Assembly: GCA_019915135.1 (NCBI GenBank)
Contig: JAHLMK010000026.1
Coordinates: 1-64,000, forward strand
Reading direction: 5' to 3'
From: Strobilurus pachycystidiatus
Taxonomy: Eukaryota > Basidiomycota > Agaricomycetes > Agaricales > Physalacriaceae
Length of the DNA: 64,000 bases
Shown here: piece by piece, positions 560 through 19,706 of the stretch
How positions within the stretch are numbered: the first letter of the stretch is position 1
How the letters are laid out: each line of letters starts with the position of its first letter
Position numbers and translations under genes: made by a program
The notes under the pieces: generated by a model
Databases searched by the model: none
What the model was told of the DNA's origin: nothing
Seen by the model: the letters and a program-made list of their open reading frames with translations, nothing else

Positions 560-3062
560 ATGTTGGAGATCGACCTGAATGCACTGGCTACTCTTCGAAA
601 ATACTGTCCAATCCCACCATATGTCAACGGAATTCTATTACCTCTAGGCGAATGTATTCGGGACATCCTAGCTTTCGACCTAGGACCCCTCTCAGAAAAT
701 GACGATATTGTTGTTTCCTTCACCCCTGCCGACGAATATCCCCTTCCCGAAGCCATCATATCTATGCTACCCTCGACAGCCCACCCATCCATCCCAAAGC
801 TCAACGACTATCTGCATCAGACCCTGAATATGCATGAGCTCGGTCATAAAACAGTCATGTTCACGTACAGATATGATCATCCCGGCGGAGAGCAAGTGAT
901 GCTAGTCCTACCAAGTTGGATGCTTGCAGTCTGGGCACGAAAGCGTCAGCTCATGCGCTCACAGCGTGTATGGACCCAGGCACTCACTACACTGAATGCA
1001 ACCTATCCCGTTATTGCGGTCAACGTCCTCCCGTCCCTCGTCGCACTTCCCTGGAACTTACTCCTTCCCAACGATCTTGCCAATGCTCGGGGCGATACCA
1101 TCGAAGGACTCGCACGATTCTGTCATACCGACAAGTGGCTAGGCACTGCCAATATCAACCAGATGATCACCATCATTAGCGATGATATTCGTGCCCAAGA
1201 GATTACCGACGTCAAGGTGGTCTGGACGGATTTCTTTGAGGGCCTGGAAAAGAGCTTTGAGAGACGTGTCGCAAACGCGGAGAAAGGATTGACGCGCCCG
1301 TATGGAAAAGACTTGGGCGATGCTCTCGCTGTGGGTGATTTGACAAAACTGATCATGGTGATCAATGTCAGAGTAGGAGAGGGCGAGGTATGCTTACCAG
1401 AGAAAAACACGCCCGGCAACCACTGGATCACCTTCGTCATCGATTGTAGCAATCCCGAGACGTCAATTGGGCATTGGGACCCACTAGGATTTCCGATGCC
1501 GAATGATGTTATTGACATCCTGCGGTGGTGGCTGCAGGCCTTTGTGTTGAATTGGGTGGTCCTCGAGAAGATCGTTGGAAGTATCCAGACGGATTCTACG
1601 TCATGCGGACTCCATGCTGTCAATACGGCACACTGTAGCGTGGACTCGAGCATCCCACTACTCCTTGCAGACGACGCAGGGTGTTACCGGGCAGAATGGC
1701 TCCAGCGCATAGTTTGGCGGCTTGCAGATATGGCAGCAAAAATGGTACGTGGTTCCTGACAAGGAGAGTGTCAATTCTAAAAGGACCCTTAGCGACTGGC
1801 AACTACAGACAATGTCGAACCCCATCCGCTCAATTTCGATAATGATAGTGATGTCGTCGTTGTCCCGAATTCTACTGCGAAAAATCAGTCTTCGGCAAAG
1901 TCACCCACAAAATCTCTCACCAAGCAATCGCGTTCGTCCCAGGCACCAGGCAAAGCGAAGAGAAGAAGCAATCTGAAGCTGGAGCCGAAGAAGGACGCCA
2001 TGCAACGTCTATTCGAAAGGGTTACACCTGCAGAAAAGGGTCCGGGAGGCCGCAAGCCTAAGACTCAGAGAAGTGTCAAAGCTAAGCGGAAACGAGAAGC
2101 CGATGCCGACAAATTAGAAGAAGACCCGTACGACTTCATCGACGTAGACCGCCCACGGATCAGAGGCGGTCGAACACTAGATCCTGTTCTCGACAAGTTC
2201 ACGGTCTGGTCCCATAAGCGCGGCAGTCCAGATGATGAAGGATGGCGGTGCAGAGCTGTTGGTTGTCGGGACTGGCACAAATCGAGGACAAGGGATCGGG
2301 TCCTAAAGCATGCAGCGGAGGTCTGCACCAAAATTGATGCCGGGATGAAGGGGGACGCGATCAAGCTACTCGCAGGAGAGGCTCCGACGGCAAAAGCTGA
2401 GAAGCTGCTTGCTGATCAAAGTCTCCTCGGTGTAACTCCAGGCCCGCCTGACGTTGACCAGTCCAAAGCGCCGCTGGAAACCGAATCAGTACCCCCGGAA
2501 GCCAAACGCCAGAAGATTGTACCCCAGACGTCAATTGATCGATATGTCGAACTATCGTCGAGGAAAAAGCGCGAGCTGAAGAATGCAAATCTCGACCGCA
2601 GACTCGTCATCTTGCGGACGGCGGGTGGGATGCCTGGGCGATTTGTTGGAAAGTGGGCGTTCCGGGAATTTCTTGAGGAGGCGGATCCAAAATGGATAAT
2701 GCCAACGAGGGACAAGGCGGAGGAGAAACTGATTCCAGCTGAGCTAGCTCTCGTCACTATCAGACAGGATGCGTGGTTGGCAAAGCAGTGGAACCTCACC
2801 GAGTCGCATGATGGGGGTACGAGCCGGGGGCATGAATCATTCTGGCTCTGCCATGTCTCCGATGCCGACAGAAATGTCTATCTTCTGGAGGGCCGTGAAG
2901 CAACGGGAGACTCGCACACTGCTGAATGGATAGCAGATTTTGTCGACCGAGTAAGTGGGAAGTGGCCAAGCGTTGAGTTGCTTACTAATCCAACACAGGG
3001 CTTGATTCGCATTGGCCCAGAGCGTTTCGGCGGTTGTGTCTGCGATAGTACCGGGAACACGC
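560..3062 (+). CDS. Ulp1 (C48) protease - BED finger - hAT/DUF659 transposase fusion, interrupted by LTR element
   Basis: Three exons are proposed: 560-1744, 1793-2950 and 2999-3062 (then cut). The first introduces a Ulp1/SENP-type SUMO protease fold with the full catalytic set: His288 in GNHW, Asp307 in HWDPLG, Gln343 and Cys349 in SCGLH; WLGTANINQM is the substrate-side Trp motif of this family. A 48-nt intron (GTACGT...TTAG) joins this in frame to the second exon, which starts with a basic linker holding an acidic-flanked DVVVVP stretch that fits a SUMO-interacting motif. A BED-type finger follows (C-x4-C-x18-H-x4-C). After a second 48-nt intron comes the DUF659/hAT signature IGPERFGG...DSTGNT. 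The reading frame is cut at the LTR boundary 3063, so the catalytic C-terminus is absent here. Alternatively the two parts are separate genes, but the exact frame match across the intron favours one protein. Confidence 0.75.
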
Positions 3063-4891
3063 TGATGTGCACGTTATTTTAGAGGCGTAGAATCACACCT
3101 AACAAACAACACAACTCTTAATACTCCGAATGAGAGTAAAGTTTCTGCGGTTTTGGAATATTGGGTTTTGCAATAGAAAATCGAGCTTGATTTACTACAA
3201 CACTACACTTGAAAAACAAGGTTCTTGCGTAACAGAAACGTAGGTGTGCACAAAGTGCGAGTTTGAAGGGGGTGGTAGGGATTTTGACCGATTGACAAAT
3301 CGTCTGGTTTCCAGGGAACAATACACAAGCCTCTGACTGAACTTAAACTATGCGACTTTCACAATCCTCGCGCTGGAGGGGTTGTATCAAGAACACGATA
3401 GTCTACTGCCACACTTGGTATGTTTCTTATAACCTCGGTAGGAGCTTATTCTTTGAGTTTGAGTGTTTTGCGTGGGTTTTAGACCAAATCGTGCTCGAAT
3501 TGCACTTGAACTCGCAAGAGGTTATGCTGGTTAACGCTTTTCGCGACTGAACGGTCCTCTCTAGGGAAAGGCTGGCTCAGACTGCAAAGTCTCTGTAGTG
3601 TCTCTAGGGAGATACTATGCTCAGAAACACCGCCTCTAGTACGTTGAATTCAAGGAACTTTGCTCTTCGATTAAGTTCACTTTTGTTCTAAACCCTTGCT
3701 CTTAGTGCGTTAGGTTTGTTCTTTGGTTCTTAGGTTTGACTCGAATTCGAGTTTCTTTGGGTGCGTGCAAATCGAATTCGATTTTGTACAGAGATAGATT
3801 ACTACAGTAGAGCTTTGTGGGCTCGTGGCTGCGGGTCACTAAACTAAACTACTATACTGTATCGACGCTTCTTTTATACAAACTGGTCCCTACTGTACAC
3901 TAATCTTAACTTACTAACTAATAGCCACTTGGAGTTAATTTCCGCGCTGTAGACACCAGTCTAGGCGCTTCCATTTCCTTATTATGCCAGTTTATTCATG
4001 ACGAACCCTCTAGAGTTGATCCACGTTGACTAATTTCAAGCTCGGATTGCAACATCCTTGCGTGCTATCGGTCGAATCTATCACATGGGGTTCATCTTCT
4101 CTTGGCTCTTAATTGTTCTGAATGCTTCTTTGCGACTCGGATTCTTCAGATTGCGTCACCAATTCAGTCTCGATTATCTGATTGAGTCTAGAGCTTCATT
4201 TCGCTTAAGAATCCACTCTAAGATCCATGGTAGATCGTTGACTTGTTGTTCGCAATCTGTCTGCTTGTTCCAATCTCTACTGATTTCAGGTCAGATTTAA
4301 TCACCTGAGATCTGAAGAAGCTTGGCTTCTTGATTCTTAACACTCTTGGCATACTGCGGATTATTCATGAAGAACACTTGATCATCTTTATCTTTATTGG
4401 CTTCTTCGAATAGCTCGGCTGTTACTCGATTTTGTGCTATCGTGGGTTCTAGACTTAGAATTCCAAGGGGATAGTTATCTTGTGATAACATTACTGGGCT
4501 TTCATCCCCATTTATGCTGACCTAGACCATTCTGTAGCTTAACCCCATTCTACTCATCAGCAGGAAGTGAGCTAATCGAACTCTAATCGTCTATGAACAA
4601 CACTGACAAAGTCGAGTCCGAATTACTTGGAACTCGAGTTCGTTTCTTAGACGAGTCCTCTTTAAGAATGTGTACGTGATGTTGACTTGATAAATCAAGT
4701 GGGCACTTTGGATGGTGATATTCGAAGATGAATTTCTCCTGGAGGCTCATTCTTGCCCTAATGAGGTCTCCGTATTATCACTGGCAATCTTATGGTCTCT
4801 CGTTAGATGTATCGTGCATTTCGGCTTCGAGTCTTATCTAGAAATCGCAAAATTCTCGGTTTCTAGGCTCAGGCGCGCATAAAGCGTGTCA
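3063..4891 (-). repeat. 3' LTR of the gypsy element
   Basis: This 1,829-bp LTR begins TGATGTGCACG and ends GCGTGTCA. It is nearly identical to 21517-23347. It contains two exact copies of the element palindrome TCGAATTCGA (3741-3750 and 3772-3781) and several degenerate ones. Short open frames inside it (for example 3118-3321) occur identically in both LTRs and show no protein-like features. Confidence 0.93.
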
Positions 4892-4903
4892 TCTCCCTTT
4901 AAC
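4892..4903 (-). other. Polypurine tract of the gypsy element
   Basis: On the minus strand the sequence GTTAAAGGGAGA directly abuts the TG of the 3' LTR. This is the expected place and composition of the plus-strand primer in an LTR retrotransposon, and it fixes the orientation and the inner boundary of the LTR. Confidence 0.75.
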
Positions 4904-5150
4904 TTTCGATATGTTGTCCGCAACATCAAGATCTTCACCCTGAACCATAATTCATTTCGCTTATTTTTCTGGTTCTCTCTTCGGGTTTTGTCTGCACGGA
5001 TGCAATCCCAACTCCAGTTGGCGCGAACAAAGCGCTCGCTGGGTCTTCGTGTTATCTTTGCAACTTGGTTAAATAGTCGGCGGTTTCTGGTCGATTTGCC
5101 CCAGCACCTGCTAACCATTTCACCCTCGAAATTCTTCTACACTTCTCACA

Positions 5151-6751
5151 ATGCCTTCTCTTGTTTCCAAGAAATCGTGGACCGGAATCGTCAACCTTAT
5201 CCCTGATGAGGCTCCCGACACCGTTCCCGAGCTAGTTGAACGTCGCCTCGCTGATGGCAAAGCGCTCTTCATCCATATTAAATATTGGGATCCGCCTGCT
5301 ACGGGTTTGGTTCCCGCCGTCTTGACGCTTTACAACAGCCTCTGTCCCTTGGTCCTTAAATCGGTCGAGTACATGGACCGCTCCAAGGCTTCCGCCAAGG
5401 ATAAGGCCGCGTCTTTGGACATGGTCATCATCAAGGTTCTTGTGAGTCGATTTTCTCTTCTTATGAATTCGTGCTCGATTTTCTAAAATCTTTATAAGGG
5501 AGCGAACCTTCCCAAGGACAACGTCTCCGGTTGCATCTATCCCGAGAAGCTCGCCACGTTTTCCTGCAATCTTCGCTCGTTCTTAGGTTTGGCGGTTTCC
5601 GAGTTGGGTGTCAGCCCTCACTTGCATACCGTTAACCTGGCCAACGTGCTTAACGCGTTCGTCATGACTTGCACCAAGAAGGGTACTATCGCGGCGGAAG
5701 CTGCCAGCCTTCCTTCGATCCATCCCCTCCATCCCAAATGGAAGAAACTCATCGAGGCTTCCTCTTCCAAGGGTAAGGAGAAGGCTAAATCTCCCGAACC
5801 CAAGGGTAAGAACAAGCTCAAGGTTCTGGTTCGTATTTCGATTTTCTGTGTTTCGAGTTCGAATTTCTTATGTCTTATGTTATAGAAGGCTTCTTCTTCT
5901 TCCACCGTTCTGGACGATCCTATTCGATTTGCCTCTGGCGACATTAGTAAATCTTCTTTTACTAATGGCTTCCAATGGGCTGATGATCATTCAGAAATGG
6001 GTGAAGTAAACTCTTCCGACTCCGAAGTAAGCTTCTGATGCCTTTTCGGTCTAGATTACGAGGCTGATCTGGCTGCTTTTCTTAAACAGCTCTCTGTGGA
6101 GTCTTCCGACGAAGAGGATAGCGATGAAGAAGTGGTCGAGGTTGCTACACCTCCCGCTTCTACAGCCTCTGAAGCCGTGAGTTATTGGCTCTTTAGCTTT
6201 TCGAGCTCGATTTTTGACTTCTATATAGTCTGCTCGCTCGGTAAAATATCTTTACTATTGTGAAGTACCCGGCCTGGATACTAATTCTTCCTTGTATCAC
6301 AAGGCTGTGGCGACGTCGGGATCCATTCCTACTGCTCAGTTGGAGACGGCTCCCAAGCGCAAGGCCACTGTTGCTCTTCCTGAATCCAAGAGGATGGCCA
6401 AGGCTCTTAAACCCGCTGGGTTTAACATCGAACCCGTCCTCATTGATCAGTTGTCTTCTAGTGAGTAACAAATTCGATTTCGATTTTGGGTGTATCTAAC
6501 TCGAATTTGTTTTCTTGACAGCCGCTCAGTTGGTCAACGCTTACCAAGGTGCCAGTTCTGCCATTGTTCGCAGAATGCAGATCTTGGCTGCGCTTCCCGC
6601 GGACTTGGCTCTTTCCGCGTCGATGGTAGCCGCGGAACACGGCTATCGCCACGAGTTGTCCTTGACCATGAACAGGGCTCACGGGGAGGTTCAAACCTTC
6701 CTGCGCACGAGGGACCTGTACCTGGCCGCGACTGATTCTTTGGTCCCTTAG
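5151..6751 (+). CDS. Cargo gene 1: six-exon gene of unknown function, antisense to gag-pol
   Basis: Exons proposed: 5151-5441, 5499-5828, 5886-6026, 6090-6176, 6304-6460 and 6522-6751, giving about 411 residues. All joins use GT-AG and keep frame; the first four introns are phase 0. The protein opens MPSLVSKKSWTG, has a compact N-terminal region of about 200 residues, a Lys-rich linker (SKGKEKAKSPEPKGK), an acidic Ser/Glu/Asp stretch encoded by exons 3-4, and an Ala-rich helical C-terminus. I do not recognise the family. Four of the five introns contain a form of the TCGANNTCGA palindrome (exact at 5853-5862, 6201-6210 and 6474-6483). Because the gene is antisense to the genomic RNA, its introns would not be removed during retrotransposition. 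It lies next to the 3' LTR; its own promoter is not obvious, and LTR-driven antisense transcription is possible. Confidence 0.72.
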
Positions 6752-7111
6752 ATCATCGGGAGCCAAGTCATCATTGATACTTCTTAGCATAAGTAATTGA
6801 TGACTTGTTCTTTACAAAGTAACTAGTCGGAAATCTTGGCTTGAACTGTGACTAGTGTACCGGAGGCTTGGGGCTTACGCGACGGACCTTTATCTTTTTA
6901 GTCTACTCGCGCATGTATTATTATCTGTCGGTCTGCATATAGACATTCTTACTCTTGATCTTGGATTCGATAATCGGACCCGAGAAATTCGGGTTCGATT
7001 ATCTCCTATTGGTTTCTTTACTTAGGTCTTGGTTCTTTTCTTAATCGGTTTGGTACCTTTCTTCTCGATTCTTATAAATTTGATCTTTTCGAGTGGTGGA
7101 CATTCATCACC
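6752..7111 (+). promoter_or_regulatory. Spacer with TATA box for cargo gene 2
   Basis: No gene is seen. TATAAAT at 7073-7079 lies 33 nt before the start codon of the next gene and is a plausible core promoter. A degenerate palindrome half (TCGGGTTCGA near 6984) is present. Confidence 0.4.
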
Positions 7112-8281
7112 ATGACTCAGATGAATTTCCCTTTTCTCTGCGAACTTAGGTTCCGCAATCTTCACTCCAGCTTCGCCATTATTCCCGACGATGTTGCCGT
7201 GTTTCTCGAGGCTGAATTAGCGGTTGCGTCCGCTCTGGATCTTTATAGCGTACACCGCGACTTTGTGATGGTGGAACGAGAGCCCGACGGTAGCTTGGGC
7301 GACGTGGATCATCGAGAGACGGCTTTCCATACGGATCGTCATCTTTTCTTTGGTGGACACCACGGTAACTTGGACGTTCCTACCTTGCGGTATATGGTGT
7401 ATGTGCTGGTGAGAAAATCGAGCTAGCATTCCTTGTTCGAATTTCTCTGACTATCCTCCTAGCGACGCTACAGTAACTTATGGCGACATGTTGCCCCCGT
7501 TACTGCTCGTGGTGTGGAAAATAGCTTTTTGTCTATGTACATTCTCTGTTGGCATCTTGTGATGTCCTTCTTTCACGAGGAACCGCTTCGAGGATTGGAC
7601 GGGGTTACTCTTCCCCATATCTTACCCGAGTCGATTATTCACTTGTCATTTGGTGAATTTCGAGAGAAGTTCCTAGCGGTTACCATGCGATCTTTAGTAT
7701 GTTATTTTTCTTGGCTTAGAAATTCGAGATCGATTTTCTTATCACTTCATAGGAAACCGCGTTCTTTTCTACCGAACAATCATTGCCTCGGTACTTGAAC
7801 ACCATAATGTCACCCGAGGACGTCGAATGGATGCGCAGCATCCCTCCCTCCACGCGAGGCATTCCAGTGTACATTCGCGAGCTGATTACTTGGATTCCAC
7901 GGTTCTATGAAGACCGGGTTCTTGACCCTATGCCTGGTAGTCAAGGACTATTTCGGGATCGCGAGTTCAGTTTCTCTACTCTTCGCCAAGGTCTTAATGC
8001 TGCAGGCCCTATATATCCCACGTAAGCATTTGTTAGAAACTCGAATTCGAATTTCTGACTTCTTTCTTAACAGGCTTATCGACCAGGATTTTCCCAATAT
8101 ACCTAAACGTTTTTGGGAAATTACTTGGTCAACTGCCTCTGCTGCGGACATTCGCCTCTTACAACACGTTGTAGCTTCCTTGTTGCCTGAACAACTTTAT
8201 ACTTTTTATACTAGGCTGTATAATAGAGGTAACAGTCCTTTGTTTCGACACTTTTGTATAGAGCCACATTGGAGGGAGTAG
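7112..8281 (+). CDS. Cargo gene 2: four-exon gene of unknown function, antisense to gag-pol
   Basis: Exons proposed: 7112-7408, 7463-7696, 7753-8021 and 8074-8281, about 335 residues; splice phases are 0, 0 and 2. The protein is globular-looking, rich in aromatic and charged residues, with no signal peptide, clear membrane segment or coiled coil. I recognise no family. It follows cargo gene 1 in the same direction with its own TATA box. All three introns carry the element palindrome or a degraded version (exact at 7724-7733 and 8041-8050). A role for the element (for example in assembly or regulation) is only an inference from its conservation of open frame inside an apparently young insertion. 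Confidence 0.72.
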
Positions 8282-8544
8282 TTACATTTCTTATATGTCT
8301 CCCTTTAACTTTGAATTGTTCGTACCGAATCGTTGAAATTCAACATGTCTTTTATCCACATCAAGTTTCTACAATTCGATCTTGAATTTCTTATTTGCAT
8401 CTTAATCTTTTTCGTTCTTCAAAGCGTTAGAAGCGTCAAGTAAAATTTTTAAAGTCTACAAGAAATGCGTGTTTGTAAAAGAAAAAGTTAAAGTCCAGTA
8501 AGTAAAACTAGTCCGATTGTCTATTTTAGAAAATCGAGCTCGAA
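8282..8544. other. Convergent spacer between cargo genes 2 and 3
   Basis: AT-rich 3'-flank shared by two genes that end towards each other. It has an exact palindrome TCGAGCTCGA at 8534-8543, one nucleotide before the stop codon of cargo gene 3. No gene or RNA is seen. Confidence 0.4.
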
Positions 8545-10003
8545 TCACTCCTTCGCTTTCTTCGCCTTCTTCAACTTCTTCTTCAGCTTGTCGATCTCTT
8601 CCTTTGCCTTCGTCAACTCTTCAGCCGCCTTGTCCAATTCGACATCCTTCTTGGATTTGTGCTTGAAGTAATCGTAGCGGCGCTTGGGCGGTGAACAAGT
8701 GTACCTTTTGACCCGGCAACGGTCGCAAGATACACAAGTCTTCGTCTTGACAGTGTCTGGGTGGTCCCGCTGATTCAGCATATACTCCCAAGTGCACTCT
8801 TGCCCTCGCTGCTCGCAGGTGAGACACTTGCGATCCACGTTGATCTTCTTCTGCATCGCCTTGTTGTCCAACACTTTGCCGTGCTTGTCCGCTTTGGACG
8901 GGCGGCTAGTGGAGGATTTCGGCTTTGAATTGGTCTTCGGTTTCTTGGGCTCTGGCGCTTCCTCTTCCTCCTCCACTGGGGTCGCGGCACGTTTTCGCTT
9001 TCGAATTCGTTCAGGCGCTGGCTGAGGAGAATGAGAAAGGGCCTTGGGCGTTGGCAGGGAATTCGAAGGCGAATTTCCTGGTTCGGGTTCCAACGCTTGC
9101 TTGGAAGTAGAAGCTATGGGGGTGCGCTGGATAGGGCATAAGAAAATCTCATTCAAATTGAAGATATTCAAAGTCGATTTTCTTACCGGTGTCTCAGCTC
9201 TAGCTGGCTTCCCTTTTTCTTTCTCCATCCTTGCCTTCGCTTCGGCAGACTTCAACGGAGTGGGTCGAGGTCTAGGCTTGGGCGTGGAAAGGGGTGTGGA
9301 GGATTTCGGGGTCGAGTTTCTGGTTGTCAACTCCGATTCTTGATCTTCACTGTCCGTTTCTGAGGCGGACTCGTCTTCTTCATCGTCAAAGAAAATCTTA
9401 TCTTTGTTAAGTAAGGAATTCGCGTTCGAATTTCTTTACTTACCTCTTCATTGAACACTGTAGGCCGTTCCAGAGGCCACTCTTTTTCTTCTGCGATTTC
9501 TCGCATCTGTTTCAAGACAAGTTGCGGCTAGAAGGTTTTATTAGCTTCAGTCCGAATCTTGTCTATACTTGAATCTTTACCGAGCTCAGCAAAACCTCGT
9601 ATTCTTGAACCATCCACTCAATGTCGATTTCATCTTCCCGCTCCGGTTCTCCTTGTGCAAGCGTCCAAACGAACCATAGCACGTAGGCTTCGAAAAGCAG
9701 GGCATCGACCTTTTCGATCTCGAATTCCAGTTGGAAGTCGAGCGGATTGATGGTGCTAGCATATCGAGCCGCGAATTCGTAGAAATGGTGTTTGGGCGCT
9801 AGCTTGCGCAACGAATCCGGGAAGTACCACAACTGAGCTGCAGTGGCTTGTGTGGAGAAGACGGGGACATAAATGAGGGGGTCCACATGTTTCCGGCCCA
9901 AGAACAAGAAGTTATGGCCCTTCGTGATGTTGACTCCGCCAACCCTAAGCTGTCCCTTGTTTTGAGTCTGGTCCATAGCGGCTACGATGTCTTTCATGGG
10001 CAT
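8545..10003 (-). CDS. Cargo gene 3: Cys-cluster and coiled-coil protein, sense to gag-pol
   Basis: Exons (minus strand): 10003-9581, 9527-9444, 9396-9187 and 9126-8545, about 432 residues. All three introns (53, 47 and 60 nt) are phase 0. The ATG at 10003 was chosen because a TATAAAAG box lies about 115 nt upstream; the frame is open further upstream. The N-terminal 140 residues form an unrecognised globular region. The middle is Ser/Pro/Lys-rich and probably disordered. The C-terminus has a Cys-rich module (C-x2-C-x6-C, then C-x2-C-x2-C-x5-C) followed by a Lys/Glu heptad coiled coil. The module could bind zinc and nucleic acid, but it is not the standard C6 fungal zinc cluster. Cargo gene 4 ends with the same module order, so the two are probably distant paralogues. 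Two or three introns contain palindrome variants. Confidence 0.75.
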
Positions 10004-10118
10004 GGTGGTGGGAAGAAATTCGAGGTCGAAAAGGTGGAAATCGAAATCGAGGGTCGTAGTGCGAGTGGTAAGCGTCGTGGGGGGGGGGGAAAAGAGTTTT
10101 TCAGACTCGAAGACCCAG

Positions 10119-10126
10119 CTTTTATA
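10119..10126 (-). promoter_or_regulatory. TATA box of cargo gene 3
   Basis: TATAAAAG on the minus strand, about 115 nt upstream of the chosen ATG at 10003, in a region without other coding signs. Confidence 0.5.
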
Positions 10127-11197
10127 CGACACCGATTATCGCTTTCCGAGTACCCGACGGTGACAACTTCTTCTGACTCGAATTTCTAAGTCCGACATGC
10201 GCAGTTGCACACGTTTATGGATCAGCGCCTTCGAACGATCTAGATTCTTGCCTATTTAGGTCATAGATCTCATCTCCAGCGCTTCCTGACCCTTCTTAAG
10301 CACTTGATTTTGCCCCTTTATTTCTAGGCTGATTATCTTGATATTCGAGCTTGAATATCTCTTCTTTTTCTTGGTAACTTTCTCTGGTGATAGCTAAGAA
10401 AATCGAGTATGATTTTCTTCAATTCTCTAATCTTACAGCGTATTTTGCCAATTCCTTAGTGCTTTACTAGGCTCTGAAGCTTTTCTTTTCTATGACCCTT
10501 ATGTTTCTTACTTGTCCAAATGTACCCAGGTCAAATCAAACTCGAATTGGCCCCCATCGATTTTAAACTTTCTTTACCCCATTAGACCGACAGTAAGGAA
10601 TAGACCGTTTTTCACTTTGAAAAGTGATTCTGGTAGATATCGATGCCAGGATTCCAAATCTGAAGTCCGATCGTCGATTGGATCATTTTCCGCGCCAGAA
10701 AAGGCAAAATACTCCGTTTGGCCCCAAATTGACCGATTGGCTCCATCTCACTTCCTAGATCATTATAGGAGGATACGGAAACCTTCTATGGGCCTTTTAA
10801 GGTCACTTCTTTAATATCTCTGCGTACAGCGCTCCCCAGGCTTCGTGCGAAAAAACTGAGGGGCTTATTTTTGATTTCGAACAACTTTCCAACTAAGCTC
10901 AAGTCAAACCGACCACACAATAAAGCGTTACAGTATTTCTTGATTTTTGACTTCGTTTGTACTCGTTTTTCGAAATTTCTTCGATTTTCTATCTTTTCAT
11001 AGCTATTCGAACCCTTCTTTCTTATAGTGCTAAGCAAACCGAGAACGTTTTGTTTTTGGCTTATTCGAGGCTTACTGCACCCTAAGTCTGTCTAGTTCAA
11101 GAAAATCGTATATGAATTTCAACTAGGGGTAAGAAAAAGTTCAAGTCCCAATAGTAAGTCAAAGTAATCCGACTGGTAATGTCAAATCGAATTCGAT
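10127..11197. other. Intergenic region between cargo genes 3 and 4
   Basis: About 1.07 kb, AT-rich, without a supported gene. It contains the upstream region of cargo gene 3, the 3' flank of cargo gene 4, degenerate palindromes near 10345, 10400 and 11100, and an exact TCGAATTCGA at 11188-11197 immediately beside the cargo gene 4 stop codon. The short open frames here look like chance. Confidence 0.4.
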
Positions 11198-13398
11198 TTA
11201 CTCTCTTGCTCTCTTCTTCTTATCCTTAGCCAACTTCTTTTCTAACTTCTTCTTGGCCTCTTTCTCCTTCTGCAGCTCTTCTTCCAAATCCTTGATGCGT
11301 CTTTCAGCATCCCTCAGCTCGGTACCCTTGCTTTCCAACGTATCCTTCATCTTTTCGAAGGCGGGTATCTTCTTGGCTTGGTGATAGAAGAAACCACCAT
11401 CGACATCGGGTGGTTGGCACATTACTCGACGGTCATGGCAAGTGTCGCAAGAAATTCGAATCTTGACTTTGGCCGCCTGGGGTTCCCAAAGTTGCTCGTT
11501 AACCGCAACCCAAGTACATTCCCTGTGACCCTTCAAGCAATTCGAGCACGAATTGAGGGTGTCAATTCGTTCTTGAACCTCCTTGTTAGTGTACACTGCC
11601 CCAGTACTGTCGATTTTCGTGGCCTTGGGTTCGTTCACCTTCGACTTCTTTGGACTCTTCTGCTTAGGTGGATCCTGAGTTCGATGAGAGTCGTCGTCAG
11701 TCTCCATACCCAATACTGGTCCCAAGTCGAGCTTCGCAGGGAGTTGGACTCTGGATGATGAGGCTACTGGTGGAGGGGTTGGAGGACGCGCGGGCGGAAC
11801 AGTTTTCGAGCTCGATTTGCTCTTGTACTGTCGCTTGACCTTCTTTGGTGGTGGCGGCCCACGGTCTTCTTCCTCTTCTTCTAACGTTCTGGGTTCAGTA
11901 ATGAACGACAGTTCGTTATATTTCTTCGAGTGTAAGTTAGTTTATAGAAATTCGAAATCGAATTTCTACTTACTCTCTTCTTGGTCTTTTCCAACTCGCT
12001 CTTTCTAGCGTTGGCTTTCTTTGTGGTCTTCTAAATCGACCAATTAAATCTAGCTCGAATAGAACTTCGAATTCGATTTTCTTACCTCTTTCATCTCCCT
12101 TGTTGGAGCTTCTACCATTGCCTTCGCCTGGTCCTTTTGCAAGGTTTTGGGCACGGGCGCAGGTTCTTCTCTTTTTCGCATCTTCGGGACTTTATACATT
12201 TCTCTCCGGTACGAGATTGATTCAATTACCAGGTGCCAATCCTGGTCTTCGGGTCGACGTGTGAAAGGTTCTATGTTAAGATCCTGTCTTGCGTCGAAGT
12301 CGAAGAACTCTCTAAGTCCCGAGGTTGTCGGTTCTCTGTTGAACATCTTCTTCAGACCTTCGGATATCGCCTTGTCCAGCACGTAGTAAAACGAATTTTC
12401 GATTTCGATTTTCTCGAATGTTACCGCCTGCTGTAGCGATGTCCAAAAGAATACGTCGAAGTGGTTATGCGGGGGGATCTGCTGGTTGAAGTGCTCCATG
12501 GCTACTTCGTAAATCCGCCGCTTTCCAAGCACAATGTCCCCACACACGTCATGTGAAGGTCGAATGCGGTACTTGCTGGGAAGATTTGTATTGCCGAAGT
12601 ACAGGAACTTTGTTGGCGGTGTTTCGACGGCGGGGATAGGTCGATTGGAACCCTTCCCTTTCTCCAAGGCACCATTGACAGCTTTGGCCATCAACGAATC
12701 TAGACCGGCTAGGCGCCACCAACGGCTATTCGGGTCTGCTTTCTGGAACACTGGGTCGACTATCACTGCCGTTACCAGGTAACACCAAGACTTAGCCACA
12801 TGTAGATCGCGGTTATCGATACCTTTTCGAATAAGGATTTCCTTGATCTTGTCCATGTTGCCTCGTATGAATTCCTGTCGTTCTAGTAGACTTAGGTTGA
12901 GTTTCCACCGATAGTCGACTTGGCTCGAGAACGCATAGGCATGAAGCTCTCCATTGTTCTTTGGGTTGGTCCAGAACTTTTCGATTGGCATTAGAGCCAT
13001 AAGCGGGGTCTTAGTTCGAAATGTTAACTAAGTAGAAAATCGAACTTCGATTTTCTACCTACCTCGTTTTCATGCGAACTGTCCCTTGTCTCTGGTTCCA
13101 TCGCTGCGTCAACTGTCTATTGTCACAGTGATTAGCCTAATGAAAAGTCATGCTCGAATTTCTTACTCGAGCCTTTTCTTTTCCTTTTCTCGACTCTTTG
13201 TGCTGACCAGCTGGTTGCGACTAAAATCGAGTCAAGTCTTATTCGTATCTTCTCGATTTGACTTACTTCTTCAACGCTCAATCTTCCCATTCGTTTGCCC
13301 AGATCCTTTATTCTTTCAGCTCTACCTTGCCCACTTGACTGTGTAGGGATAGTTCGCTGCGAATCATAGGTCGACGTGGATGCAATAGGTTGAGGCAT
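11198..13398 (-). CDS. Cargo gene 4: six-exon Cys-cluster and coiled-coil protein, sense to gag-pol
   Basis: Exons (minus): 13398-13267, 13220-13167, 13116-13063, 13009-12086, 12030-11974 and 11923-11198, about 648 residues. All five introns (46-55 nt) are phase 0 and all contain the element palindrome or a spaced version (exact at 11952-11961 and 12067-12076). The N-terminal 80 residues are low-complexity. Exon 4 encodes about 308 residues of a globular domain that I do not recognise. A Pro-rich and acidic linker leads to a Cys module (C-x2-C-x6-C...C-x2-C-x5-C) and a long Lys/Glu coiled coil ending KDKKKRARE. Overall order matches cargo gene 3. A TATA-like box lies about 95 nt upstream. The introns lie in the same sense as the genomic RNA, so their survival is notable. 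Confidence 0.77.
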
Positions 13399-13491
13399 TG
13401 ATGAAACTCGAGTTCGAAGTGGTGCAAGCTAGCCCGGGTAATCGTAAATATGGGGACGGAAAGGAAGCAAATCGAGTTCGGTGTCCTTTCC

Positions 13492-13497
13492 TATATA
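13492..13497 (-). promoter_or_regulatory. TATA-like box of cargo gene 4
   Basis: TATATAG on the minus strand about 95 nt upstream of the cargo gene 4 start codon, a spacing like that seen for cargo gene 3. Confidence 0.4.
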
Positions 13498-13499
13498 CC

Positions 13500-14036
13500 C
13501 CTCTGAACGATAAATCCGAGCACCCGACGAGCACAACTTCTTATGAGTCGATTTTCGACTCCGATTTTTCTTTTACTCTGGAAAACGCTGATCTTTGCTG
13601 TGCGCCCTGCGCCAACGTTCCTGAATCTTTCCCAATTTGGTAATCAGGTCCGCCACGCACGTTTGTCTTCGCGCTTCTTACTTACTCTGGTACCAGTATC
13701 GGTTCCTAAGCCGATCTGAGGTCCAGATTTATTCATTTTGGGGTTTTTGGCGCATCAGATCTAGTAGATCCGAAAAATTTATTGTAATTTTCCTGTTTAA
13801 TACACCATATATATCCCCTCTATTTTCTTTTGATGGTGTCCGCACCATCTAGTCTTACTCTTTAATCAACTTTCACCAAATCAACTTCGATTTGGTCGTC
13901 TGATTACCTCTCGAATTCAACATGAATTTAATCTATGTTGATTTTCTTTCTTATCTGGGACCCACAAACGTCCATATACCACTTTTTGTTTTTCTTCACA
14001 ATTCCATGGGACTCTGTGGTTTTATGATCTTCCACC
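13500..14036. other. Spacer before the tRNA-like cluster
   Basis: AT-rich, about 540 bp. No coding signal is seen. It separates the promoter of cargo gene 4 from the first tRNA-like gene. Confidence 0.4.
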
Positions 14037-14108
14037 GGCCATATTGTGTAGTGGTAACACATCTATCTATTGTGATAGATTTCAGTTGGTTCGAATCCAC
14101 TTATGTCC
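14037..14108 (+). tRNA. tRNA-like gene 1 (A box and perfect B box; His-like features)
   Basis: 72 nt. The acceptor strands GGCCATA and TATGTCC pair at six of seven positions, the D stem GTGT/ACAC is perfect, and the D loop has AGTGGTA. GGTTCGAATCC is a perfect B box. The anticodon arm TCTATC...GATAGA pairs well but leaves a loop of six or eight instead of seven; GTG lies in the loop, which recalls tRNA-His. The T stem is weak. This could be a degenerate tRNA gene or a tRNA-derived Pol III promoter. Confidence 0.5.
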
Positions 14109-14242
14109 CTATAAGTTGACTGTGTCTTCGCCTTTTTAATCGAAATTCAGCACCACCTATTCGAGTTCGAATATCCTCAGGACCTTATGATTTCATGTAA
14201 TATCTGGAGCATTGTGGTCTCGGACATTTCATAAATTCTTAA

Positions 14243-14331
14243 GGCATCATGGTGTAATGGTAACATCCTCCTCGATTATTCCGGGCTTCAGTGTTGCCAG
14301 GAGGGATCTTGGTTCAAATCCAAGTGACGCC
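14243..14331 (+). tRNA. tRNA-like gene 2 with enlarged anticodon loop
   Basis: 89 nt. The acceptor strands GGCATCA and TGACGCC pair at six of seven positions. The D arm TGGTGTAATGGTAACATC is typical of eukaryotic tRNA-Glu/Gly/Gln. The anticodon stem CCTCC/GGAGG is perfect but encloses 28 nt, as if a 21-nt intron or insertion were present. The T arm CTTGG-TTCAAAT-CCAAG is perfect, with B box GGTTCAAATCC. Isotype is not assignable by eye. Confidence 0.5.
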
Positions 14332-14419
14332 ACTTTAGTTTGCGGCTTCGGCATCTGATCTTTTTCTTTTTCGATGGAATTTTGGCTCAGGGGATTCACC
14401 AATCCTTCTTGTACTTTAA

Positions 14420-14498
14420 GGTCATATGGTGTAATGGTCGCATCCCCCTATTCTCTTAGAATTCTAGGGGGGACTTGGGTTCGATTCCCAATATGACC
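14420..14498 (+). tRNA. tRNA-like gene 3 (perfect acceptor and T stems, Glu-like D arm)
   Basis: 79 nt. Acceptor GGTCATA/TATGACC (7 of 7) and T stem TTGGG/CCCAA (5 of 5) are perfect, and the B box is GGTTCGATTCC. The D arm TGGTGTAATGGT is like tRNA-Glu. The anticodon arm is an extended stem (CCCCCTA/TAGGGGG) with a 14-nt loop containing CTC, the Glu anticodon, and an extra GAATTC-containing stretch. It is the best of the three candidates. Spacing between the three is 134 and 88 nt. Confidence 0.6.
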
Positions 14499-14667
14499 AT
14501 TGGGCCCCCGACTTAAAGTCGTCTTTTTATCTTAGTAGCATACGGTACCACTGTTTGTAGAGTTATTCGATCTCGAATTGATTTTCATATTCGAGCTCGA
14601 ATTTCTCAAGCACTGACCGATTACACTACTCTTGACTTCTTAGCAATATTGAATTCGAATTGCTTTC

Positions 14668-17600
14668 TTAATCTTTTCTACCCATCTTTGACAAGTCATC
14701 TACTATTTTCTTAGCGCCTTCCTTGATTCTCTTAAGTGCTTCAAAGAATTTATGCCCCAAGAAAATAGGTTCTTTTCTTGAGTAGAACGGTATGACCCTA
14801 AATTGAGCGATTTTGTCTTTCAATACAGTGCCATCTAGTTCGCACAAGATGTAATTATTTGCAGTAGTTCTTGCCACTACAGCATATGGTCCCATGAACC
14901 TTTCTTTGAACTTTGCGTTCATTTCCTTCTCAATTCTAGTGTTTCTTACCAATACCAAATCTCCAGTATCGAATTGATAACGAGGAATGCTATTGACAAA
15001 ATCATCCATGAATTTCGAAGCTGCTTTCTTCTTGTTGAGGGTAACTCGCTTCTTCATTTCTTTTACATCTTCCTTGTGCTTGATGAGCTGTTTTGCTCGA
15101 TAAGCTAGTAAATCGGATGTCGATACGATTTTATCTGGTGTATCCACTAACCAAGTTACTTCTTCCAAATCTAATGGTAGAATGGGATCGCAACCTGTTA
15201 CAGCGTAAAAGGGGGACGTTCCTATGGATCTTTTGACTGTGATTCTTTCAGCCCAAAGAATTTCATGGAGGAATTGCGGCCATTGTTCAGGATTGCCTTT
15301 GCAAACTTTGAATAGTGACTGTCTGATATCCCAATGTCCTCTTTCTACTTTTCCGTTAGCCGTCTTGTTGTACGGCGTGATTGCAATACCCTTTATACCA
15401 TACTTGTCTTCAATATAACGTATAGCTTTTAGGATCGCTGGACCATTATCGGTTACGATTTCCTTAAGACAACCCCATCTGCATAGTATGTCTTCGAATA
15501 TCCATTCACCTAGCGTTTCTGAGTTTTCTACCTTCAACGCTCGAGCTTCTGGCCATCCAGTGAGTCCACACCTTGCTACGGTTACTGCGTTATAGTCTTT
15601 GTATTTATCAACCTTTGAGGAACTCGAACCCGATTTTGGCATTCGAAACGTGTCAATATAGGCTCGCTCGAATATACCAGGTGTTGAAGTAATCACAGGT
15701 TCGGTCCTTATAAGGGTCTTTTGTCTCTTCTGGCATAGTATGCAAGTCTTCGTATACCATTTGATATCAGTGTCCAATCCAGGCCACCAAAATCTCTTCT
15801 TGACTAGCTGAAGCACTGAGTATTGGCCTTTATGTCCATTCGAGTCATGCAGTCGTTTTACAATAGCAAATCGACTCGATTTTTGTATTACTCTCTTATG
15901 TGCTCCATCCTTATCTTTCTTATATAGCTTTTCATGTCGGATAAAGAAATCTTTGCTCCACTCTTGTAATTGGGTTACTTCTGATTCCGTTAGCGACACA
16001 AATTCCTTCTCAGGATCAAGTATATAATCTTGCATATAAGGCAAAAGAAGCTCCCAGTTAGTTTCTCGTTTACTGCGAGGTAACGCTGGGAATTCATCCA
16101 TTGCTAGCCATCCTTCTAGTTCTTCAATCGAAACTGCTCCGCTAAGAGCTAAGTCTCTTTGTTCTTTATACTTGCCAGGCCAGAAAACCGAGCTCGAATT
16201 TACAATTGTCTGAGCAAAACCTTTTCGATTATCAATCAAATCTTTGAATGAATCGAACGGTTCCGGTTTATCTTTCAGTTCTATGTCTTCAGGTTCTTCG
16301 TACTCAAACATATGAAGAACATCTTCTTCTTCATCAATATCTGGTCTAGGAACTTGTATATCTAGTTCTGAACTGGGTCTTCTGCTTAAACCGTCTGGAC
16401 CATGTACTTTACCTGGCACATGTACTAAGGTAAAGTGATACATCAAAATTTCTTCTGCCCAACGTTGTAAATTAGCATTCGCCAATGAGTCAACGTTCGA
16501 CAACATTCCTTTAATGTATTTGGCATCCACTTCGATTTTCAGCTTTCGACATCCTAGCAAGTAATATTTGCAGTGCATCAAAGCCCGATACAAGCCAAAC
16601 AATTCTCTTTTCGCTTGCGAATATCTAGCTTCTCGCTCATTCAAGGTAATCGACATGAATTTCGCAAAGTACTGCTTCTTAGGTTCTTCGGGATCGAATT
16701 GCGACAGATAAAACCCTACTGCTTGATATGAAGTATCCACAGATAGAATGATTGGAGTATCCCAGTCATATCTTAAAGGTTTTAACATGGGGCAAGTCTC
16801 TATTGCTCTTTTTAACTCGTCCATACTTGCTTGTTCTTCATCTCCCCACTTAAAGGGTATGATCTTCTTAGTCAAATAAGTCAACGGTCGAGCTTTCTTA
16901 GAGTAATCCTTAACAAACGCCCTAAAGATTCCAGCCGTTCCTAAGAACGATCGTACTTCAGTAAGCGATTGACAAGCGGGCCAGTCTGAAATGACCTTTA
17001 CTCTTTCTTCCGCTGGTTTTCTTCCATAGTATGTACATACATGTCCAACTACAGTGATTTCTTCAGCACAGATAACCGCTTTCAAACCTGAAAAAGTACC
17101 TCCAGCATATTTCATACGCTGGACAATACGATTCATGTTACAAAAGTGTTCCCAAATGAACCGGCGGATTTTCGGGTTCGATTTGAGGGTTTCGTAAGTA
17201 CCATCTGCTTGTTGATACCTGCTACTTGGTCCTTTTACTGGCACATCGTCAATATAAGGTCGTGTAAAAGCTGGTATCTCGTCTCTTAAGATGTAAGTTA
17301 CATCGTCATGGAAAATCGGAACCGAATTGGTCCATCCCATAGGCAAGGTTCTTAGTCTTAATGCTCCATACGGTGTAGAAAATGTAGTCATATCGCGACT
17401 GCTAGTGGCCAACATTCTTTCATCGTATCCTACATACAAATCTAATGTCCCTCCGCAAGACAAACCCGCAAAAGCCTCTGCTAATTCTTCAGTGGCTGGA
17501 GGTAGACCTGAGTGAGCAATGGTAACCGCGTTCAACGGTTCCAGACTATGGACTAATCTCAGTTTCTTTCCATCTTTCTTGACAACACAAAACCATCGAC

Positions 17601-18567
17601 TTCTATACGACGAGTTCGAAGGCTCGTATACTCCCGAATCGATTTTGTGTTTTATGATCTTGCATACTTCTTCATAGATTCCTGGCGGTATAGGTATGTT
17701 CTTTAACACCCAAGGAGTATGAGGTATTACTGGCATATCAACAGGCGGGAAGAAATCCTCTCTGAATTTCCCCTTTTCTGTTTCATCCCAAGCAAATCCT
17801 TCATTCTGTAGACACATAAAATGGTCCAACAGTTTCCGTTCTTCCGGCCATAGGAAATCTCCAGTATGGTCATCTTGAATCTGTTCCCTACGTTCCGCTG
17901 TATAGCGTCCAGTTGGTACAAATTCGGGCGGATTTTCCGATAACTGAGGCATATCTTTTAAGGGATCTCCTACAATATGTCGTTGAATCCGAAATTCTTC
18001 TGGTAAGGTTCCTAAGTGAGCCTTGGTCTTCAAGTGTACGGGTTTATATTTCTTCGTAGCAAATACTCCCCGACTACTTCTTTCTTCCTTGATATTCGAA
18101 AGGAATTCCTTTCTTGCTTGTCCAACATAATCTATAGGCATTGATACCTTGAAATTACTGAACACTTCTTCTAGTCCATTAGGTACGCCATAAAACATGT
18201 CCATGGTAGACATGGCTTTGATTTCTGGCAAATCCAAGTCGAATTTCTCTTTTCGAATATCGAACAACTTCTTAAAACCAAATACTTCTTTAGTAGGGAA
18301 AATCGAATTCGATTTACTAGGTGGTGTTACCATGAACGGTTCCACTCCTTGTTTCATAAATCGATACTGATTTCGAATTGGTTTTACTAGTTGATTCACT
18401 CTATCCGAGGATTTTCGAAGGTACAGACTAGTTATTGCTTCTGGGTCAAACGTGTCCTGCCCACCATTTGGAACATACGTTTGCTTAATCTTGATTTCAC
18501 CATTCAGACCCTTCTCAATCACCAATGCCAACTCTCCTTGATATTCGTTCAAGTCCTCGAGTTTGGG
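14668..18567 (-). CDS. pol: Pol polyprotein: reverse transcriptase, RNase H, integrase (Ty3/gypsy)
   Basis: The frame is open from the slippery site at 18567 to the stop at 14668; about 1,294 residues follow position 18552. RT carries the LDLYVGYDER region and the catalytic YIDD box (residues about 433-436 of this numbering). RNase H carries the acidic set in VDTS, KRELF and VDAKY. Integrase has an HHCC finger (H-x4-H...C-x2-C) and the catalytic triad D967, D1035 and E1070 (D-x34-E in the second interval). A GPY/F-type module (GPYAVV) follows; no chromodomain is present. No internal stops or frameshifts are seen, so it appears functional. There is no AUG at the start of this frame: expression needs a -1 frameshift from the protease frame. 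Confidence 0.93.
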   Translation of the reverse strand, partial: PKLEDLNEYQGELALVIEKGLNGEIKIKQTYVPNGGQDTFDPEAITSLYLRKSSDRVNQLVKPIRNQYRFMKQGVEPFMVTPPSKSNSIFPTKEVFGFKKLFDIRKEKFDLDLPEIKAMSTMDMFYGVPNGLEEVFSNFKVSMPIDYVGQARKEFLSNIKEERSSRGVFATKKYKPVHLKTKAHLGTLPEEFRIQRHIVGDPLKDMPQLSENPPEFVPTGRYTAERREQIQDDHTGDFLWPEERKLLDHFMCLQNEGFAWDETEKGKFREDFFPPVDMPVIPHTPWVLKNIPIPPGIYEEVCKIIKHKIDSGVYEPSNSSYRSRWFCVVKKDGKKLRLVHSLEPLNAVTIAHSGLPPATEELAEAFAGLSCGGTLDLYVGYDERMLATSSRDMTTFSTPYGALRLRTLPMGWTNSVPIFHDDVTYILRDEIPAFTRPYIDDVPVKGPSSRYQQADGTYETLKSNPKIRRFIWEHFCNMNRIVQRMKYAGGTFSGLKAVICAEEITVVGHVCTYYGRKPAEERVKVISDWPACQSLTEVRSFLGTAGIFRAFVKDYSKKARPLTYLTKKIIPFKWGDEEQASMDELKRAIETCPMLKPLRYDWDTPIILSVDTSYQAVGFYLSQFDPEEPKKQYFAKFMSITLNEREARYSQAKRELFGLYRALMHCKYYLLGCRKLKIEVDAKYIKGMLSNVDSLANANLQRWAEEILMYHFTLVHVPGKVHGPDGLSRRPSSELDIQVPRPDIDEEEDVLHMFEYEEPEDIELKDKPEPFDSFKDLIDNRKGFAQTIVNSSSVFWPGKYKEQRDLALSGAVSIEELEGWLAMDEFPALPRSKRETNWELLLPYMQDYILDPEKEFVSLTESEVTQLQEWSKDFFIRHEKLYKKDKDGAHKRVIQKSSRFAIVKRLHDSNGHKGQYSVLQLVKKRFWWPGLDTDIKWYTKTCILCQKRQKTLIRTEPVITSTPGIFERAYIDTFRMPKSGSSSSKVDKYKDYNAVTVARCGLTGWPEARALKVENSETLGEWIFEDILCRWGCLKEIVTDNGPAILKAIRYIEDKYGIKGIAITPYNKTANGKVERGHWDIRQSLFKVCKGNPEQWPQFLHEILWAERITVKRSIGTSPFYAVTGCDPILPLDLEEVTWLVDTPDKIVSTSDLLAYRAKQLIKHKEDVKEMKKRVTLNKKKAASKFMDDFVNSIPRYQFDTGDLVLVRNTRIEKEMNAKFKERFMGPYAVVARTTANNYILCELDGTVLKDKIAQFRVIPFYSRKEPIFLGHKFFEALKRIKEGAKKIVDDLSKMGRKD

Positions 18568-19706
18568 TGAAAACCCACGGGTTCAGCCTTAGTTTGATGA
18601 CTTGGTATCTGACCCCTTGCATAAGTGGGTAAAGTCATTCTTTGGCCATTCCCTGGGTCTACAACAGTTACTGTGGTTAGACCGGCCGCCGACGTTTGTA
18701 GGCTTGCTTGAGACACAGTCTCAAACGGTCTACCCAGTAGAATGTCATAGGCAGGATCTTGTAGAATGTGAAACTGAAGGTAATACACGATTCCTTCACA
18801 GTTTACCGGTACATTTCGCGCTAAGCCTAATGTTACCGTTCTTCCTTTATCTGCACTTTCCATAGTGATCTTAAAACTTGGGTCGTACGCTAAACCGAGC
18901 TCAAATGCTGTCTTGAGAGACATCGAGGCAATCTGTGATCCCCCGTCTAGGAGACACTCTTTTCGATTTCCATGGTTGATTCTTAACCATAGGGTTCTGA
19001 GGTCTACACTTTCTGGTGCCATGTACAACTTAGAGACATGGTATGGTCCTTGAAATTGCGTCGTGTTGAAAAATTGTTCTATAGGATCTTGTACGACTAT
19101 TGACCCTTTAGGGACCTCTTCAGACTCGATTTGTGAAATCGAATAGACATGCTTAGAGGTAGTCTTAACATTCCTTGTCTTTAACAATTTCTCTAGGTTC
19201 TTTCGCCACTCAATGTTAGTTGCAAGTAACTTCTCTGGTAAAAGTTCCTTCCAAGCTTCTTTCCATTGAGGATTTTCTTCAAGAAGCAAATCGATTTCCG
19301 ATTTTCTTTTGTACGACTTGAACTTTTCTATTTTAGGTAGAGTTGAATCTACCGTGGAAGATTTAGGTAAATCGAGTTCGATTTTCGGTTCTGGTTGATT
19401 AGCAGCGTCTTTTACTTGCTTTTCAACTTCCCCACCTTCTGACTCTTCGTCAGATGAACTGTCTTCTTCACCTTTATCTTCAAAGCTAACTTGCTTAGGT
19501 TGAACTGTTGTAGTAGGTCGCTTTGGTATTTCTACCGTGACCCTCTGTCTTGGCCATACCGTCTTAGTCGGTACTGTAGTCTTAGGCATTTCGGTTTCGA
19601 ATTGTAAACCGTTCTGATTCTTATTCTGACTTCGAGTATTAACAGCGTATGAGCTTTCCGGTAAAGATACTGTATCTTCTTCCTTCATCAAGCTCAGTTG
19701 AAACCC
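18549..19706 (-). CDS. pro: Aspartic protease frame (pro) of the gypsy element
   Basis: About 380 residues in the -1 frame relative to gag. The N-terminal half is acidic and Pro/Thr/Ser-rich. The C-terminal half holds a retropepsin-like domain: LLDGGSQI (active-site motif; DGGS instead of the common DSGS or DTGS, as seen in some fungal elements) and the downstream hydrophobic DILLGRPF motif. The frame has no AUG near the junction except one at 19688, just after the gag stop. Either -1 frameshifting at GGGTTTC or reinitiation could express it; the perfect heptamer favours frameshifting. Confidence 0.85.
   Translation of the reverse strand, partial: GFQLSLMKEEDTVSLPESSYAVNTRSQNKNQNGLQFETEMPKTTVPTKTVWPRQRVTVEIPKRPTTTVQPKQVSFEDKGEEDSSSDEESEGGEVEKQVKDAANQPEPKIELDLPKSSTVDSTLPKIEKFKSYKRKSEIDLLLEENPQWKEAWKELLPEKLLATNIEWRKNLEKLLKTRNVKTTSKHVYSISQIESEEVPKGSIVVQDPIEQFFNTTQFQGPYHVSKLYMAPESVDLRTLWLRINHGNRKECLLDGGSQIASMSLKTAFELGLAYDPSFKITMESADKGRTVTLGLARNVPVNCEGIVYYLQFHILQDPAYDILLGRPFETVSQASLQTSAAGLTTVTVVDPGNGQRMTLPTYARGQIPSHQTKAEPVGFHPNSRT
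18561..18567 (-). promoter_or_regulatory. Slippery heptamer CCCAAAC at the pro-pol junction
   Basis: Read on the minus strand in the protease frame, this is C-CCA-AAC, a textbook X-XXY-YYZ -1 frameshift site. It is followed nine nucleotides later by the protease stop codon TGA (18551-18549). After a -1 slip the frame is exactly that of Pol. A downstream stimulatory structure could not be evaluated by eye. Confidence 0.75.

Follow-up and report, generated by a model that had tools for sequence, protein, structure and literature searches.

The window analysed here, i.e., positions 1 to 64,000 (64,000 nucleotides) of contig JAHLMK010000026.1 from the agaricomycete Strobilurus pachycystidiatus (assembly GCA_019915135.1), harbours a large autonomous-type Ty3/gypsy long terminal repeat (LTR) element of ~20 kb on its minus strand (3063–23347). 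In a pairwise alignment of 1831 columns, the 3′ LTR (3063–4891) and the 5′ LTR (21517–23347; 99.8 % identity), both on the minus strand, are distinguished by 1 mismatch and a single gap of 2 nt. The 4-bp duplication ACGC is present on both flanks, so that the LTR pair and the target site duplication characteristic of Metaviridae are in place. Since the two LTRs are near-identical, the insertion is a recent one. The Pol protein displays RT_RNaseH (residues 569–705) ahead of Integrase_H2C2 (residues 890–945), i.e., the Pfam domain order of Ty3/gypsy elements. Within the 16.6-kb internal region, the part between pol and the 3′ LTR (4892–14667) occupies 9.8 kb.

This part contains four predicted spliced genes in both orientations: (i) gene A (5151–6751, plus strand, antisense to the element; 411 amino acids) with 6 exons (5151–5441, 5499–5828, 5886–6026, 6090–6176, 6304–6460 and 6522–6751), (ii) gene B (7112–8281, plus strand, antisense; 335 amino acids) with 4 exons (7112–7408, 7463–7696, 7753–8021 and 8074–8281), (iii) gene C (8545–10003, minus strand, sense; 432 amino acids) with 4 exons (10003–9581, 9527–9444, 9396–9187 and 9126–8545), and (iv) gene D (11198–13398, minus strand, sense; 648 amino acids) with 6 exons (13398–13267, 13220–13167, 13116–13063, 13009–12086, 12030–11974 and 11923–11198). 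All 16 predicted introns (46–127 nt) have GT-AG borders, splicing of the four genes being a prediction from these gene models. The products of C and D each combine a cysteine (Cys) cluster with a charged, coiled-coil-like tail and are paralogous at their C-termini (blastp, 30–32 % identity over ~110 residues, E ~1e-15). Pfam yielded nothing above cut-offs in A, B, C or D, including env, chromodomain or any other usual addition to gypsy elements, and a PDB search with C and with the A and B families gave no meaningful match. Among 5.8 billion proteins, 7999 candidates were scored for A and none reached E ≤ 1, which is weak evidence, as a full-length query misses single-exon fragments.

The 51.8-Mb assembly (61 contigs) contains 22 near-complete copies of the A–B stretch including that of the window (95–100 % identity), plus fragments, and an adjoining reverse transcriptase (RT) or pol match was found for 21 of them, as judged by position. 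Twenty of the 21 copies other than the window were fetched for comparison. They are colinear with the window, some with insertions or truncations, and not one covered intron has been lost, in sense and antisense genes alike (B intron 2 of copy L028 has an 18-nt gap). Gene A is intact in 15 of these copies, B in 14, C in 17 and D in 11, the remainder being affected by indels, stops or missing coverage; part of A is absent from one copy, and D is wholly or partly absent from four. Ratios of nonsynonymous to synonymous differences (pN/pS), pooled for the 6 most diverged copies versus the window, are 0.09 for A, 0.18 for B, 0.14 for C and 0.25 for D, these copies not being independent and the 14 others being too similar to the window for inclusion. 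The most diverged copy alone (L028) gave ~0.10 for A, 0.25 for B, 0.21 for C and 0.13 for the covered part of D. Judged from these ratios, the proteins of all four genes evolve under purifying selection. The true constraint is probably stronger than pN/pS indicates, because the copies share ancestry and include post-insertion decay. At one point between C and D (10777–10779 of the window), most fetched copies carry extra sequence of varying length that is absent from the window; in copy L012 (3807–3979) it is a tandem tract of two 86-nt units, the unit itself with inverted repeats.

A pol search of the genome, in which 36 of 455 candidates were scored, yielded 18 matches at 98–100 % and 18 at 69–70 % identity. 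Two sister families with related accessory genes were recognized. In family 2 (pol 69–70 % identical to that of the window), the region downstream of pol was read in one copy (L029) and contains, in this order, a sense, intronless Cys-cluster gene of 603 amino acids, an antisense B, an antisense A and the 3′ end; 14 of the 18 genomic matches listed for this region span the query from 1 to ~7850. Family 3 was read in two copies (L031, which carries a nested insertion, and L032) and shares 67 % (pol), 45 % (protease) and 31 % (gag) identity with the window element. It has the same gene order as family 2 (sense Cys gene, antisense B, antisense A). In the genome, 12 matches extend over L031 from ~4670 to 10000, and LTR matches occur in pairs ~14.9 kb apart. 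The nested insertion (L031 1–4671) is a separate repeat with two other copies at 100 % identity.

Spliced alignment placed introns of A at matching residues in families 2 and 3 (after residues 97 and ~336), and all three introns of B are common to both families (after residues 99, 174–177 and 264–267), agreeing within 3 residues. Whole-protein identity of families 2 and 3 to the window is 30–32 % for A and 24–28 % for B, and the sense Cys genes of the two families share 38 % identity with each other. Since these values (24–38 %) compare with 67–70 % for pol, divergence is much more rapid in the accessory proteins than in pol. The kinship of the family 2/3 Cys genes to C and D is suggested by the Cys pattern and by one weak tblastn match between C and the family 3 gene (26 %, E 9e-8); direct BLAST of the family 2 Cys protein against C was not significant. 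Genome searches with D's main exon and C's first exon gave matches at 81–100 % identity only, as in the window's family, and D was seen in this family only. Because A, B and the Cys gene share their order, and A and B their intron positions, across families, they represent an accessory set of the lineage rather than a one-off capture. On this comparative sequence evidence, A, B and a sense Cys-cluster gene almost certainly form the accessory set of a lineage comprising at least three families in one genome.

An RT census, in which 150 of 263 candidates were scored, yielded 20 matches at 99–100 %, ~70 at 84–95 %, one group at 64–68 %, one at 47–54 % and others more distant. One copy of the 64–68 % group (family 4) was read and has a long post-pol region with different antisense open reading frames (ORFs), the 7 kb after pol being repeated in 4 copies; BLAST with A–D yielded no homologue at E below 0.03, pol excepted. 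The long antisense ORFs of this copy are located at L033 1638–4797; by eye, one of them has a pair of Cys triads arranged as is usual for Zn2Cys6. In the single copy read from the 47–54 % group (family 5), no convincing homologue of A–D was found, the best match being to A (E 0.001) in an ORF that by eye resembles an F-box protein. Among the 5.8 billion proteins, 1098 pol relatives were found at E ≤ 1e-30; within the 120 listed, six share 66–73 % identity and the others ≤54 %, including Armillaria ostoyae (52 %) and Lentinula edodes (48 %). The Cys protein of families 2 and 3 has two metagenome homologues in the same collection (69 % and 45 %).

Between pol and D, the element of the window also carries three tRNA-like genes on the plus strand, recognized by ARAGORN and by Rfam RF00005 (gathering score 29 bits): the first (14037–14109; 41 bits) without a normal anticodon call, the second (14243–14333; 43.2 bits) and the third (14420–14499; 44.7 bits) with a long anticodon arm. 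They contain A- and B-box-like internal sequence and have unusual anticodon arms. The third has 22 matches in the genome, all of which by position adjoin copies of the window's element, and the three genes differ at 0–5 positions among covered copies. They were seen in the window's family only; for families 2 and 3, ARAGORN did not find them in the sequence that was read.

Most of what the original prediction had claimed from the letters of the window is borne out by these results, namely an apparently young copy, a region of about 9.8 kb after pol, four multi-exon genes (two antisense, two sense), and the lack of env, chromodomain or other usual gypsy additions. Its proposal of a new lineage of giant elements stands with respect to the lineage, two sister families carrying A, B and a sense Cys gene. 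With respect to size it needs qualification: the element is large but no record, its 16.6-kb internal region remaining below the 20-kb internal limit applied in PMC6431247. Co-occurrence of all four genes with pol holds insofar as RT or pol lies beside nearly all A–B copies; it is limited by the confinement of the D main exon and the C first exon to the window's family and by the partial paralogy of C and D. The same pol without cargo, or the cargo alone, was not encountered in the copies examined; one broken copy (C9:761460) retains pol and only fragments of the cargo. The genes belong to the element; the term cargo would make them passengers, whereas the observations are consistent with the element's own accessory genes. 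The three tRNA-like genes at 14037–14499 and a palindrome, AWTCGANNTCGAWT, had been overlooked.

As to the claim that such an element was previously undescribed, no fungal LTR element like that of the window was found in searches of an open-access library (Repbase and closed papers being outside those searches), and the available part of a Laccaria survey (PMC3411680) mentions none. Its ingredients are in part known already from sources available as excerpts, i.e., plant elements with antisense ORFs in the interval from pol to the 3′ LTR (PMC11963269) and animal elements with extra ORFs (PMC5408684). In Retand, Grande and related plant gypsy elements, antisense ORFs are located in a pol-to-3′ LTR region of 2.9–6.6 kb, and possible DNA binding has been proposed for their TRP28 protein (PMC11963269). 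They resemble the window element in this long region and in antisense ORFs kept across the lineage, but differ in their plant hosts, the TRP28 domain and, in the excerpt, the lack of any mention of introns, whereas the fungal element has four genes predicted to be spliced, two of them sense, and tRNA-like genes. A and B share the antisense position of the Retand ORFs; Pfam scans of the A and B families, read up to E 1, gave no match to the TRP28 domain (PF04195). Ogre with 1–2 extra ORFs and Burro with a huge polyprotein (PMC6431247) are likewise oversized gypsy elements with extra coding capacity; in the excerpt of that paper they are not described as having four spliced genes on both strands. 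The LTR elements of bdelloid rotifers also possess extra post-pol ORFs common to a group, with ORF3 types such as env, GDSL, DEDDy or similar (PMC5408684, in part); Pfam found no such domains in A–D. Helenus/TRIMp3, which occur also in Agaricomycetes, share tRNA-derived sequence inside an LTR element. There it is located in the LTRs of short non-autonomous elements (excerpt of PMC10886601), whereas the three tRNA-like genes of the window are internal, between pol and D, in an element with gag, protease and pol. In the literature examined, plants and animals account for most descriptions of accessory genes in LTR elements. With several genes under selection on both strands, predicted to be spliced and retained across families as their sequences diverge, the present fungal lineage is a tractable case for studying accessory-gene function.

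The Cys clusters of C and D consist of CX2CX6C, ~22 residues and a second CX2CX6C, followed by the charged tail with coiled-coil-like spacing as judged by eye. The first triad resembles the second half of the Pfam Zn_clus model (PF00172) and the second triad its first half. In native order the model scored 15.8 bits for D and 14.2 bits for C, each in two stretches, and with the halves swapped 19.4 bits for D and 15.8 bits for C. The arrangement suggests a circularly permuted Zn2Cys6-like cluster. Zn2Cys6 factors often bind palindromes as dimers. Fungal members share with C and D two CX2CX6C triads, basic surroundings and a coiled-coil-like segment, whereas C and D differ by the swapped order of the halves, the ~22-residue linker and scores under the Pfam cut-off.

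The window contains 13 copies of the palindrome AWTCGANNTCGAWT, all of them within the element (3770–22237; strandless; starts at 3770, 6472, 7722, 8532, 11185, 11950, 14159, 14565, 14589, 18301, 19370, 20174 and 22224), versus a mean of 0.01 in 100 dinucleotide shuffles. Genome-wide it was counted 272 times versus 15 for a reversed-pattern control, and 47 of the 50 places listed fall by position in copies of the window's element. Among the words enriched in the element is ATTCGA (79 versus 16 expected), CGATTT and AATCGA behaving similarly. The density of half-sites per kb is 33 in introns (14 of the 16 contain one), 11.7 in intergenic DNA, 8.2 in the LTRs and 1.6–6.2 in the accessory coding exons, versus 1.05 outside the element. 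At intron positions other than CpG, 4 of 541 half-site positions differ among copies versus 124 of 3928 other positions; at CpG positions the values are 18 of 261 versus 20 of 176, i.e., somewhat fewer. One palindrome is located at the stop codon of C (8532–8545) and another at that of D (11185–11198).

VANDALs of Arabidopsis are DNA transposons. In the noncoding DNA of VANDALs, also within introns, short motifs specific to each family are bound by VANC proteins (PMC5735166 and PMC10398659). The window's family parallels this system in its fast-evolving element proteins and in a short motif, private to the family, that is concentrated in noncoding DNA and introns; it differs in that the carrier is an LTR element and the palindrome is dispersed, whereas VANC motifs reside in tandem repeats, and in that any binding or demethylation by C and D is putative. 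We consider it possible, at somewhat less than an even chance, that C and D act on the element by binding the palindromes, either regulating it or relieving its silencing, in the way VANC does for VANDAL transposons. C and D would then be nuclear DNA-binding proteins, paired through their coiled-coil-like tails and each using its CX2CX6C...CX2CX6C cluster on AWTCGANNTCGAWT, and would favour AAWTCGANNTCGAWTT over scrambled DNA. The palindrome has accumulated in introns, intergenic DNA and LTRs of the element, such that binding would mark its own copies amid the host's other repeats. Marked copies might be kept transcribed or unsilenced, or their number tuned. A and B, with antisense expression starting at the 3′ end, may assist expression, RNA export or particle assembly. 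Lying between pol and D, the tRNA-like genes may act there as chromatin boundaries or as promoters for RNA polymerase III. Since the copies have kept the introns of C and D, RNA copied back into DNA would have to escape splicing there, and internal promoters of C and D are probable. These retained sense introns raise the question of how element RNA avoids splicing. The complete scenario, a self-recognition system convergent with VANDAL/VANC, in which permuted Zn2Cys6-like clusters of C and D bind the family-private palindrome and block silencing while A, B and the tRNA-like genes complete a virus-like accessory module, appears unlikely as a whole. If it is true that C or D bind the palindrome, a retrotransposon would possess a sequence-specific self-recognition system.

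Several observations weigh against palindrome recognition by C and D. Both clusters remain below the Zn_clus gathering score of 21 bits in either order, the family 2 Cys protein gave no Zn_clus match in native or swapped order, and structure models reached predicted local distance difference test (pLDDT) values of only 36 for D exon 4 and only 38 for the metagenome homologues of the family 2 Cys protein. The gag-pol ORFs hold half-sites as well (4.4–7.9/kb), intergenic half-sites are barely more conserved than their surroundings (non-CpG 10 of 611 versus 299 of 12854; CpG 15 of 306 versus 54 of 1105), and half-sites are less numerous in each of the 6 diverged copies than in the window. Families 2 and 3 were searched for a motif as clear as that of the window's family and none was found. 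The top word of family 2, GACCTT (39 versus 5.7 expected; ~5/kb versus 0.59/kb in a host stretch), is not denser in noncoding (5.0/kb) than in coding DNA (5.4/kb) and reaches 2.0/kb in introns, and family 3 has weak words only. Because GACCTT is spread over coding and noncoding DNA alike and the family 3 words are weak, a motif in every family is not established, and the VANC-type pattern of a family-specific short motif dense in noncoding DNA was found for the window's family only. A palindrome without any protein partner, either a by-product of family composition or a small mobile hairpin landing in tolerant places such as introns, would agree with its presence in non-essential places, the loss of half-sites in diverged copies and the lack of an equally clear palindrome in families 2 and 3. 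It is less compatible with 13 matches against 0.01 expected from dinucleotide composition and with the better conservation of intron half-sites at non-CpG bases, and is judged somewhat unlikely.

A role of the accessory proteins at the RNA or particle stage, i.e., in export of unspliced genomic RNA, packaging or assembly, with the palindromes folding into RNA hairpins by which the genomic RNA retains its introns, is a further explanation. The excerpt of PMC10309623 reports that CERV is required for export of Cer1 genomic RNA in C. elegans; in the present element, sense introns are kept in all covered copies, so intron-bearing RNA needs a means of export, and short inverted repeats are abundant (36 with arms ≥7 versus 4–10 in four Markov shuffles). 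Half-sites are, however, also dense in the LTRs, in intergenic DNA and in the antisense introns of A and B, all of them places with no bearing on genomic RNA splicing, and the Cys clusters look more like DNA-binding ones, leaving this explanation somewhat unlikely. The introns as such would also suit recently captured host genes carried as passive passengers. Genes and intron positions are, however, shared by three diverged families, selection is purifying, and genome searches with B, D exon 4 and C exon 1 revealed no single-copy homologue of host type, so that capture is very improbable. Nested insertion was rejected in view of the shared gene set, selection and the colinear copies. Finally, chance ORFs are numerous on either strand in a mechanical ORF list of this GC-poor repeat; the low pN/pS of each of the four genes (well below 1), conserved splice sites and the existence of homologues render an origin of A–D as chance frames practically negligible.

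The remaining coding part of the element, on the minus strand, comprises gag (19694–21526; weak zinc-knuckle match), the protease ORF (18549–19691; weak aspartyl protease match) and pol (14668–18552; ORF list and Pfam, with RNase H and integrase zinc domain). RVT_1 gave no match in the Pfam scan of the window's pol; close pol relatives share its domain set, and a few add PF00078. As read by eye, a primer binding site-like sequence beginning with TGGAGCCC follows the 5′ LTR, and a polypurine tract-like stretch, AAGTTAAAGGGAGA, precedes the 3′ LTR.

The insertion splits an ORF at 2000–3062 and from 23352 onward; joining the flanks restores a frame of 415 codons, which has no Pfam match. An adjoining ORF (560–1759) shows a weak Ulp1/C48 peptidase match, and a similar-looking ORF (by eye) is located at L029 7770–8969 near the sister-family copy. 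Outside the element, a G-rich minisatellite with a period of 21 and 17.5 copies is present at 25963–26320.

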